From assembly GCF_002252755.1 (NCBI RefSeq), contig NZ_NHOY01000007.1, forward strand, positions 1-51,026: a DNA stretch of 51,026 nucleotides, written 5' to 3'. The DNA comes from Halorubrum sp. Hd13. Its GTDB lineage: Archaea; Halobacteriota; Halobacteria; Halobacteriales; Haloferacaceae. The first letter of the stretch is position 1. The number at the start of each line of letters is the position of its first letter. The notes beneath the pieces are model-generated. The model saw nothing but the letters and a program-made list of their open reading frames with translations, was not told where the DNA came from and searched no databases. The position numbers and the translations under genes were made by a program. Of this stretch, positions 10,049-12,547 are shown one piece after another.

Positions 10049-10651
10049 ATGACCCTCGACCAGTACCGCTCGGTGGCGGACCGCCTGCTCGGCCCGTGGG
10101 TGCGCGCCGCCGCCCGGCTCGGGCTCTCGCCGGACCAGGTGAGCGCCCTCGCGTTCGGCGTCGCGGTCGCGGCCGCGGGGGCCTTCGCGGTCGGCGAACC
10201 GCTCTTCTACGCCGTCGGCGCGGTCTGCGTCCTGCTCAACGGCTGGCTCGACCTCGTCGACGGCGCGCTCGCGCGCCACTTGGAGGTCTCCTCGGACGGC
10301 GGCGACCTCCTCGATCACGTCCTCGACCGCTACGCCGACATCGCGATCATCGCGGGGTTCACGGTCGGGGTCGAGGCGTACGCCCTCGGCTTCCTCGCCG
10401 TCACCGGCGTCCTGATGACCTCGTACATGGGCACCCAGATCCAGGCGGTCGGCATCGGGCGCGAGTACGGCGGACTCCTCGGTCGGGCCGACCGACTCGC
10501 GCTGATGGGTATCGTCGGCCTCGTCGCCGCCGTCTACTCGACGCCGATCGTCGTCGGACTCAACGTCGTCGGCCTCCTGCTCGCGCTGTTCGCCGCGGTC
10601 GGGCACCTGACCGCGGTCCAGCGGTTCCTCGGCGCCTGGAGCGATTTATAA
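10049..10651 (+). CDS. CDP-alcohol phosphatidyltransferase (archaetidyltransferase) family membrane enzyme
   Basis: The 200-residue integral membrane protein carries the diagnostic catalytic motif DLVDGALAR followed by GGDLLDHVLD, matching DG-x2-AR-x8-G-x3-D-x3-D. Six hydrophobic segments surround it. The family joins CDP-activated archaeol to a polar alcohol, such as glycerol phosphate, serine or inositol phosphate, to make membrane lipids. The alcohol acceptor cannot be read from sequence. It ends the hisC/AK6 group, with gaps of -4 and 26 nt, and a TATA-like TTTATAA sits right at its stop. Confidence 0.88.
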   Translation: MTLDQYRSVADRLLGPWVRAAARLGLSPDQVSALAFGVAVAAAGAFAVGEPLFYAVGAVCVLLNGWLDLVDGALARHLEVSSDGGDLLDHVLDRYADIAIIAGFTVGVEAYALGFLAVTGVLMTSYMGTQIQAVGIGREYGGLLGRADRLALMGIVGLVAAVYSTPIVVGLNVVGLLLALFAAVGHLTAVQRFLGAWSDL

Positions 10652-10771
10652 ACCGGGCCGACGAGCTGAGTGCGAATCTCGGCGTGATGATGCAGTTGTT
10701 TATATTCCGGACCGCGGTGTTGCCATCGGCTGTTTATCCCTGGTCGACGACTCTGCGGTGAACACGTCCAA

Positions 10772-10880
10772 AGCCCCAGGCGACGAGAGCGACGCACGCT
10801 CGCTGCGCACCTCACTCGATCGCTGACGCTCTCTCGTTGCGGTGCTTGCGTCTCCTGCGTCGCTCTCGTCGCCTGCCCCT
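10772..10880. repeat. Long inverted repeat, 20-bp perfect arms
   Basis: Arm 1 (10777-10796, CAGGCGACGAGAGCGACGCA) is the exact reverse complement of arm 2 (10856-10875). Beyond a 3-nt mismatch block (CCC facing CCC) the pairing resumes for 5 bp (CAAAG at its outer left end, CTTTG at its outer right end). The 59-nt centre is itself rich in TCGCTCGCT-like text. As RNA this would be a very stable stem; as DNA it resembles the end pairs of small mobile elements. Confidence 0.7.
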
Positions 10881-10938
10881 TTGAGTCCCACCCACATAGC
10901 ACCGCAGCCTCACGCCCCCCCCAGCCTCGGCGGACGGC

Positions 10939-11013
10939 CCGGCGCGGGCGGAGCCGCGCCGGCCCGCCGCCTCCCTCGCACGCGCTCTGAGCGGCCGCCG
11001 ATGGCGGCCGCTC
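10939..11013. repeat. Two GC-rich perfect hairpins
   Basis: The first is CCGGCGCGG-GCGGAG-CCGCGCCGG at 10939-10962, with further near-pairing outside it. The second is GAGCGGCCGCC-GAT-GGCGGCCGCTC at 10989-11013 with 11-bp arms. They follow the long inverted repeat on the same side, so a + strand transcript would carry three stems in a row. Confidence 0.65.
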
Positions 11014-11101
11014 GGAGGCGCGCGCCACCGCGTCTACTCCTTATAAGCGATCGCCGCCGTGGCCGTGCCGATCGGGATCGGTGGAGAACGCCTCACTTAC
11101 C

Positions 11102-11211
11102 GATACGCCCGACAGAAACGAGAGATACGCCCGACAGAAACGTGAGATACGGTCGACAGAAACGAGAGATACGGTCGACAGAAACGAGAGATACGGTCGA
11201 CAGAAACGAGA
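11102..11211. repeat. Five tandem copies of a 22-bp repeat
   Basis: Units start at 11102, 11124, 11146, 11168 and 11190. The consensus is GATACGGTCGACAGAAACGA plus GA. Copies 3-5 are identical; copies 1-2 have CGCC in place of CGGT, and copy 2 has one more change. The length 22 is not a multiple of 3, so this is not a coding repeat. The array ends 7 nt before the stop codon of the minus-strand mrp gene and therefore sits in its 3' untranslated region, where each copy gives a CUCGUUUCUG tract. Confidence 0.9.
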
Positions 11212-11218
11212 CGGGCGA

Positions 11219-12547
11219 TTACGATCGCGTCGCCCGCGCGAACCACGTCTCCGGGTTCTGTCGCTTGACGCGGAAGCTCGGGAGCTCCTCGGCGTCGGTC
11301 AGGTCGAGCAGGAACCCCCGGACGGGCGTCGGGTCGCGGTCGCTCACGATGAAACACTCCTCGCCCGAGCCGAGCTCACGGAACCGCTTCTCGACGCGCT
11401 CTTTGCGCGTCTCCGGGTCGAGTCCGCGCAGGTCGACGGCGTCCGCCGGCGGGTCGACCGACCACACCGCCTCGTACCGCTCGTCGATCGCAGCGGCGAG
11501 CTCTGTCGCGTACTCGGGGAGCGCGTCGGCGCTCGGTGCCGGCGTCGACTGCAGCTCCGGGTCGAAGGGGAGCTCCGCGAGGACGGGTAGCTCGAGCGCC
11601 TCGATCGGGTCGTCGCCGCCGAACAGGTCGTGGGGCGTTCCGCACTCGTCGCAGACGAACTCGCCCATGTTCGAGACGACGCCGAGCACGGGCACGTCGT
11701 TCTCCTCGAACAGCTCCAGCGCCCGGGCGGTGTCGGAGACGGCGGCGTGGAACGGCGTCGTGACGAGGACGACGCCGTCGACCGGGACCTCCTGCAGGGT
11801 CGTCAGCGTCACGTCTCCCGTGCCCGGCGGCATGTCGACGACGACGCTGTCCGGGTCGCTCCACGCGGTCGTCTCGAACAGGTCCGAGAGCGCGTCGTGG
11901 GCCATCGCGCCCCGCCACGCGAGCGGGCCGTCGTCAGAGAGCAGCGCCATGCTCATGACCTCCAGCCCGCCGGCGTCGACCGGGACCGGGTTGCCGTCGT
12001 CGTCGCTGTAGACTGGGCCGCTCGCGCCGATCACCTCGGGGACGTTCGGGCCGTAGATGTCGGCGTCGAAGAGTCCGACAGAGGGGGTGTCCTGACTATC
12101 GCTGTTACCCGCCGCGAGCGCGCACGCCAGCGTCGTCGCGACCGTCGTCTTCCCGACGCCGCCCTTCGTGCTCGCGACCGCGATCACCCGGTCCGCGGTC
12201 TCTATCCCAGACGACCGCCCGTCGAGGTCCGGTTTCGGATCGGCCCCTTCGACGCGCGCGTTCGAGACGCCCCGCGCGTCAGAGACCGCCTGCACCATGG
12301 CGGCCGACACCCGCTCGGCGGCGTCCCGCGGGAACTCCCGCAGGTCTGCGGTGATCGTCGCGGTGCCGTCGGCGACCACGACGTCCTCGATCACTCCGGC
12401 CTCGAACACGCTGACTCCGGCGTCCGGGTCTCGGACCTTCCGGAGCGCGGCCTCCGCGGCGTCGGCGGGCGATTCCTGAGCGAGCGGTTCGTCGGTGTCG
12501 TCGGTTCCGTCGGCTTCGTCGGGGGTATCAACGGTGGGATCTGTCAT
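11219..12547 (-). CDS. Mrp/NBP35-type Fe-S carrier ATPase with C-terminal DUF2249-like domain
   Basis: The 442-residue protein starts at ATG 12547. Residues 27-100 resemble the MIP18/DUF59 domain often fused to Mrp. The deviant Walker A motif KGGVGKT (128-134) and DMPPGTGD (238-245) mark the MinD/Mrp ATPase, and C299-x2-C302 fits the paired cysteines that hold a bridging Fe-S cluster. Residues 371-442 carry VDLRGLDPETR and SDRDPTPVRGFLL, which match DUF2249 (PF10006) by eye. Mrp proteins deliver Fe-S clusters. Placed 70 nt after the HEAT gene at the end of the nitrate reductase cluster, it may serve the many clusters of NarGH; that is inference. Its 3' end runs into the 22-bp repeat array. 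Confidence 0.88.
   Translation of the reverse strand: MTDPTVDTPDEADGTDDTDEPLAQESPADAAEAALRKVRDPDAGVSVFEAGVIEDVVVADGTATITADLREFPRDAAERVSAAMVQAVSDARGVSNARVEGADPKPDLDGRSSGIETADRVIAVASTKGGVGKTTVATTLACALAAGNSDSQDTPSVGLFDADIYGPNVPEVIGASGPVYSDDDGNPVPVDAGGLEVMSMALLSDDGPLAWRGAMAHDALSDLFETTAWSDPDSVVVDMPPGTGDVTLTTLQEVPVDGVVLVTTPFHAAVSDTARALELFEENDVPVLGVVSNMGEFVCDECGTPHDLFGGDDPIEALELPVLAELPFDPELQSTPAPSADALPEYATELAAAIDERYEAVWSVDPPADAVDLRGLDPETRKERVEKRFRELGSGEECFIVSDRDPTPVRGFLLDLTDAEELPSFRVKRQNPETWFARATRS

Follow-up and report, generated by a model that had tools for sequence, protein, structure and literature searches.

A dispersed intergenic repeat of Halorubrum with three covarying hairpins that are replaced at fixed sites

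The window, a stretch of 51,026 nucleotides from Halorubrum sp. Hd13 (contig NZ_NHOY01000007.1), contains one copy of an intergenic repeat family whose three hairpins are under pairing constraint, and whose sites are inherited by position across species while the hairpins are replaced wholesale. With a probability of about 0.6, the locus belongs to a dispersed, non-autonomous family of intergenic repeats that is long resident and has a selected fold, hairpin cassettes being exchanged between its copies.

The copy in the window and its family

Hairpin 1 is built on an inverted repeat at 10769-10796 and 10856-10883 (CAAAG-CCC-CAGGCGACGAGAGCGACGCA versus TGCGTCGCTCTCGTCGCCTG-CCC-CTTTG, with 59 nt between the arms), which gives 20 perfect pairs, a symmetric 3x3 CCC/CCC internal loop and 5 more pairs. 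The first-pass annotation had described a 20-bp perfect stem with a 5-bp extension, which was borne out, although the 3-nt bulge placed between the two is actually this symmetric loop. Two GC hairpins had been noted after the stem and were found at 10935-10966 and 10985-11017, hairpin 2 with arms of 13 nt (10935-10947 and 10954-10966, 92%) and hairpin 3 with arms of 15 nt (10985-10999 and 11003-11017, 93%). The TATA-like element announced in front of the stem is also there, and the copy was said to hold no credible protein, in agreement with the lack of any credible coding sequence seen within it. In the plus-strand MFE fold a closing stem, GCGGTG/CACCGC at 10755-10760 and 11026-11031, wraps all three hairpins, so the repeat unit is wider than the CAAAG...CTTTG part. 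CAAAG and CTTTG had been proposed as possible terminal repeats of a MITE, an idea that was rejected, since the two words close the foot of hairpin 1 and the unit around it also takes in hairpins 2 and 3.

The fold is much more stable than 200 dinucleotide shuffles, with z = -7.65 for the plus strand and -7.34 for the minus strand, and 0 shuffles were equally good. Using nhmmer and a profile of 47 copies, a match was obtained at 10756-11031 (E=2.6e-59) as the sole copy within the window. Since the flanking open frames end at 10651 and, on the opposite strand, at 11219, the copy lies between convergent genes. Its features are as follows.

10699-10706, plus strand: TATA-like TTTATATT in the left flank, read directly from the sequence
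10733-10737, plus strand: second TATA-like word, TTTAT, read directly from the sequence
10756-11031, minus strand (the strand whose fold appears selected): repeat core of about 275 bp, from the family profile match and the closing stem
10769-10883, unstranded: hairpin 1, with CAAAG/CTTTG, CCC/CCC loop, 20-bp stem and 59-nt interior, from the fold and the covarying stem
10838-10845, unstranded: TGCGGTGC in hairpin 1, complementary to GCACCGCA at 10899-10906, candidate pseudoknot
10873-10889, minus strand: conserved motif CTGCCCCTTTGAGTCCC, minus strand GGGACTCAAAGGGGCAG, from the copy alignment
10907-10929, minus strand: most conserved motif GCCTCACGCCTCCCCAGCCTCG, minus strand CGAGGCTGGGGAGGCGTGAGGC, from 407 collected copies
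10929-10971, unstranded: hairpin 2, an exchangeable cassette, from 114 distinct sequences in 160 copies and swaps at orthologous sites
10972-10979, unstranded: conserved linker TCCCTCGC, from the copy alignment and profile
10978-11025, unstranded: hairpin 3, from the fold and covariation
11040-11047, unstranded: palindromic TATA-like CTTATAAG immediately beyond the core, a similar word lying 6-11 nt past CACCGC in most copies

In aligned copies the plus-strand order is one or more TATA units ending in CCAAAGCCCCAG, hairpin 1, CTGCCCCTTTGAGTCCC, a variable ACCGC-rich spacer, GCCTCACGCCTCCCCAGCCTCG, hairpin 2, TCCCTCGC, hairpin 3, CACCGCA and a TATA-like word. The central motif GCCTCACGCCTCCCCAGCCTCG has 9 of 21 positions free of any substitution in the 407 copies, which were collected by a search that allowed 3 mismatches, and the window copy has CCCCCCCC where this motif reads CCTCCCC. 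A peak of TATA-like words lies about 31-40 nt ahead of CCAAAG (101 of 143 copies), and the word beyond the core, about 6-11 nt past CACCGC, was seen in 118 of the 143. The TATA-containing unit of 60-65 bp upstream of hairpin 1 is present two or three times in tandem at loci L055, L067, L030, L010 and L011; in 800 kb of genome G065 the 60-bp unit was found only beside elements and is therefore no independent repeat there. Motifs similar to TGCGGTGC and GCACCGCA recur across many copies, and from their complementarity the pair in the window may form a pseudoknot.

Other sequences accompany the family. Directly downstream of the window copy (11102-11211), a 22-bp unit, GATACGGTCGACAGAAACGAGA, is repeated five times in tandem with 95% likeness, and the orthologous sites in G004 and G008 hold single diverged traces only. 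Short palindromes with GATGACG-like spacers between them (TCAGAACGC..GCGTTCTGA, CACGAGAGC..GCTCTCGTG and CCAGAAATC..GATTTCTGG) lie side by side inside hairpin 1 at L163 (700-1200), L085, L162 and L166, and apparently represent a second, smaller dispersed family that inserts into this element. In the flanks of L076 and the intergenic region of L083, sequences like GGCTCTGTTGAAATCC ... GGATTTCAACAGAGCC, which we take to resemble IS6-type terminal repeats, flank or neighbour element copies.

BLAST against the genome of origin placed the element at 49 places at least, and the motif CCTCCCCARCCTCG occurs 70 times in it. Across 52 Halorubrum genomes this motif was counted 7-193 times per genome, with 0-2 for the reversed-motif control, and these counts are lower bounds because the window copy itself lacks the exact motif. 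Most Halorubrum genomes carry dozens to nearly two hundred copies. Within the order the motif is spread very unevenly (69 of 392 genomes, 16 of 95 genera) and beyond Halorubrum it is patchy, with 98 copies in one sister genus and 0 to 91 copies per genome in g17, a genus of another family. Copies were found in Halorubrum species, Haloparvum sedimenti, Halobellus captivus and Halorussus. In the non-Halorubrum copies examined, hairpin 1 is usually absent or different and the series GCCTCACGCCTCCCCAGCCTCG, hairpin 2, TCCCTCGC, hairpin 3 is largely retained, the GCCTCACGCCTCCCCAGCCTCG motif being found in Halorussus, Haloparvum and Halobellus copies alike. Several copies from outside Halorubrum (L148-L159) have a common left boundary, GCTAGCTACTGCCG, upstream of the conserved motif, which is perhaps the end of the non-Halorubrum version of the element. 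No match to the family was found in the phage records searched, and the plasmid records searched gave five partial matches only, none from Halorubrum. The single motif match on a viral contig (L294) was discarded, as the element is not present there and the match is probably due to chance. Several contigs of the Hd13 genome start or stop inside copies, so the element helps explain assembly breaks.

Sites are inherited by position while hairpins are replaced

At the window locus G004 and G003 have the element, G008 and G032 have it with hairpin 1 cleanly missing, G030 keeps a remnant and G005 has none. One site is filled in two species and empty in two. In many species pairs with about 89% identical flanks, hairpins at orthologous sites are no more alike than those of random copies: likeness was 0.67 for orthologous and 0.66 for random pairs in hairpin 1, 0.65 and 0.61 in hairpin 2, and 0.79 and 0.77 in hairpin 3, the orthologous values being slightly too high on account of a few same-species duplicates in the set.

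The closest pair found, the sister species G016 and G021, is 97% identical over one locus and about 95% over the sampled flanks. Nearly all sites are shared: thirty orthologous ones were located, and at one of them G016 clearly lacks the element. Likeness of at least 90% was seen for hairpin 2 at only 5 of 17 comparable sites and for hairpin 1 at 5 of 14, compared with 1-2% of random pairs. In the clearest case (L295 versus L339) the alignment is near-identical, with two base differences in hairpin 1 and none in hairpin 3, and hairpin 2 is a different hairpin, exchanged precisely at its base between CCCCAGCCTCG and TCCCTCGC. Both hairpins 2 have relatives elsewhere in the sampled genomes, and the part of G016 that was sampled holds one hairpin-2 sequence at four places. 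No identical donor for the new hairpin was seen, the nearest being 86% alike within what was sampled of its own genome and 98% alike at a different site of the sister genome; since no exact donor was found, conversion is something we infer and do not observe. In G016, the interior of one hairpin 1 is inverted.

The site empty in two species and the one empty in G016 would also be expected of a plain MITE, that is, a non-autonomous DNA transposon bounded by the terminal inverted repeats GATCGATAGCGGGAGT and moved by a transposase encoded elsewhere, in which the hairpins are incidental. The variation from 0 to 91 copies within genus g17 points the same way, and so do outer inverted repeats resembling GATAGCGGGAGT, found at both ends of six copies, each from a different species. 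With 1 mismatch allowed, GATAGCGGGAGT occurs 10 times in 800 kb of G065, and 9 of these occurrences are near elements, mostly pointing inward and mostly at distances from the core of about 96 bp (left) and 79 bp (right). However, such repeats belong to a small minority of copies and were not seen at the window copy, in contrast to the core and its pairing, which most copies retain, with compensatory changes and invariant linkers that are unexpected in an incidental interior. Moreover, the sites are mostly common to species, and the flanks of the empty sites are too diverged to define ends, so that a target duplication could not be delimited and none was seen. The first-pass annotation had looked to many copies with sharp ends as the sign of a mobile element: the dispersed copies are there, but sharp ends with target duplications were not found. 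With the evidence on both sides, a plain MITE is considered unlikely.

Pairing constraint, strand of the fold and placement

The three hairpins are under pairing constraint. RNAalifold on 25 copies gave compensated double changes at 29 of 66 consensus pairs on the minus strand, an abundance of the compensatory changes that had been named beforehand as support for an RNA, and a weaker consensus on the plus strand (-110.7 kcal/mol for minus versus -85.8 for plus). Covariation is present in all three hairpins, and shuffling the arms abolishes pairing. Among the distinct sequences of hairpin 2 (114 in 160 copies), the outer 10 positions are fully paired in 32% with their own arms versus 1.6% with shuffled arms, length differences not being allowed for in this test. 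Chimeras of two copies lose about 9, 16 and 8 kcal/mol for hairpins 2, 1 and 3, respectively, relative to hairpins with their own arms; for hairpin 3 the pairing was assessed by folding, since length differences defeat a fixed-register test.

What pairs as a wobble on one strand reads as an A-C mismatch on its complement. Stem-enclosed single mismatches, read on the plus strand, were A-C rather than G-T by 14:0 in hairpin 2 and 31:1 in hairpin 3, and in hairpin 1 by 53:15 in a larger set and 14:0 in a smaller one; pooled over hairpins, G·U on the minus strand prevails by 98 versus 16. Because the mismatches are mostly G·U or G-T on the minus strand, the selected fold is probably that of minus-strand RNA or single-stranded DNA, opposite to the C-rich strand viewed in the first-pass annotation. 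RNA is the simplest carrier and single-stranded DNA is less likely; that the minus-strand fold acts as RNA is rated somewhat better than even. The copies are related and non-independent, so these counts overstate significance. A strong mutational strand bias could mimic the wobble asymmetry. Per position, C>T and G>A stay within about a factor of two of each other in the CTGCCCCTTTGAGTCCC motif, but constraint on these sites makes this a weak control, and the central motif has more G>A. Initiation on the plus strand, close to the base of hairpin 1, accounts for the TATA-like boxes no less well than initiation on the minus strand, for which they place no clear start.

Single-stranded DNA hairpins also tolerate G-T better than A-C, and the wobble asymmetry is therefore compatible with a palindromic element acting at the DNA level, similar to PATE or REP, which would either be moved as single-stranded DNA by an HUH enzyme or owe its palindromes to template-switch repair, and whose fold would matter as single-stranded DNA instead of RNA. 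The inverted interior of hairpin 1 in G016 and its clean loss in G008 and G032 would suit such an element. Orientation agrees as well: near oriC of G065, 3 plus and 16 minus copies lie to the left versus 26 plus and 13 minus to the right (p=6e-4), pointing away from oriC, and G027 shows the same trend less clearly (p=0.03). That orientation follows replication near oriC is suggestive, the region having been chosen after the pattern was seen. However, this orientation puts the plus strand as the lagging-strand template, whereas the wobble asymmetry indicates the minus strand, and IS200/IS605 ends have two subterminal hairpins, fewer than the three of this family with its invariant linkers. A DNA-level palindrome is an improbable account of the family. 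As a separate observation, the leading strand of G065 near the origin is richer in C than in G.

Genomic placement was studied with 58 copies from the initial 800 kb of G065, a single-contig genome in which genes were predicted with a simple home-made codon model. None of the 58 overlaps a predicted gene. Convergent gaps hold 20 of them, against a background in which 89 of 513 gaps (30 bp or longer) are convergent (Fisher p=7e-4), 31 lie between co-directional genes and 7 between divergent ones. The enrichment in convergent gaps, about threefold, with depletion in divergent gaps, would follow from a host-selected transcription terminator or 3'-end stabiliser between convergent genes, and strong hairpins at sites conserved between species would suit this function. 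Nevertheless, avoidance of promoters can produce the same enrichment, which alone is therefore no proof of a 3'-end role; the co-directional and divergent copies do not fit, and an invariant 21-nt motif is not required for it. Archaeal termination is mainly driven by T-runs, which also speaks against this function, and it is regarded as quite unlikely. An independent plus-strand gene for a small RNA, with a TATA box of its own a short way ahead of CCAAAG and a 5' end expected near CGGTGAACACC, would explain the position of the TATA-like peak and the tandem duplication of the unit with TATA and CCAAAGCCCCAG in several copies, but it is very unlikely given that the plus-strand stems of hairpins 2 and 3 show A-C mismatches and almost no G-T, the plus linkers are C-rich and the plus consensus fold is less stable.

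Proposed explanation and comparison with known systems

If the family is a long-resident repeat with a selected fold and exchanged cassettes, its minus-strand fold would be that of an RNA read through or from the copy, and the hairpins would move as units between copies by short-tract ectopic gene conversion, for which the invariant linkers GCCTCACGCCTCCCCAGCCTCG and TCCCTCGC may serve as anchors. Exchange of whole hairpins would renew the sequence and carry complementarity along with no new compensating mutations. Haloarchaea recombine frequently and are polyploid. Gene conversion rather than a dedicated enzyme is the likely means of exchange. The family may first have spread as a mobile element, whose outer repeats GATAGCGGGAGT would survive in a minority of copies, and would now be kept mainly by descent, preferentially where promoters stay unbroken. 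The invariant 21-nt motif beside hairpin 2 is best read as a putative docking site of a trans-acting factor. The persistence of fold and linkers would mean that they are either needed for mobilisation or used by the host. It is somewhat doubtful that the element does useful host work rather than being a tolerated selfish repeat. A bolder version, which seems unlikely, would make the family a new class of archaeal repeat RNA with enzymatically exchanged hairpins: a site-keeping ribonucleoprotein element, with a trans factor recognising the invariant CGAGGCUGGGGAGGCGUGAGG and cassettes rewritten among about 100 genomic copies, possibly via an RNA or single-stranded DNA intermediate.

With up to about 190 copies in a 3-Mb genome, the family ranks as a major intergenic component throughout an archaeal genus. 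The block replacement of perfectly paired hairpins at otherwise vertically inherited positions provides a natural assay by which ectopic gene conversion can be counted in polyploid archaea, as well as a ready covariation set for an unknown RNA or single-stranded DNA fold.

Regarding known RNAs, no Rfam 15 family matched at gathering, the best sub-threshold match having E=0.9, in line with the earlier remark that no named RNA family has this shape. OLE, ROOL and GOLLD are large structured noncoding RNAs with one or few copies per genome. The present family is like them in its covarying multi-helix fold and invariant single-stranded motifs, and differs in having many copies per genome.

The nearest described haloarchaeal elements are the PATE and SMR elements of Haloquadratum walsbyi, reported there together with MITEs (PMC3119063). 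PATEs have palindromes near their termini, are related to IS605 ends and lack inverted terminal repeats, and SMRs are about 80-110 bp long and target other mobile elements (PMC3119063). The present family resembles both in being haloarchaeal, transposase-free, multi-copy and palindromic, with heterogeneous copies and core deletions. In contrast, it has three hairpins with invariant linkers, is intergenic, lies mostly at shared sites and changes its hairpins at fixed sites. When the features of PATEs were checked, hairpins 1 and 3 were found near the core ends with hairpin 2 between them, and some copies have outer inverted repeats. The defining features of MITEs and PATEs were tested in part, and none was clearly recognised. 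In open-licence papers on Halorubrum or haloarchaeal repeats, MITEs and noncoding RNAs, a description of the family was not found. Since neither these features nor a match in Rfam or the literature assigns it elsewhere, the family is classed with the dispersed structured intergenic repeats.

Among these, BIME/REP, ERIC and BOX occur in dozens to hundreds of intergenic copies with strong secondary structure, a modular or mosaic make-up and exchange between copies. The present family is similar in copy number, intergenic location, structure, mosaic make-up and sequence exchange, whereas it is archaeal and has a distinct three-hairpin core, and no sequence relation is expected. To our knowledge, no BIME/REP, ERIC or BOX element keeps its sites while replacing whole covarying hairpins between fixed linkers. 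The exchange of hairpins at fixed sites is the distinctive feature of this family among dispersed structured intergenic repeats.
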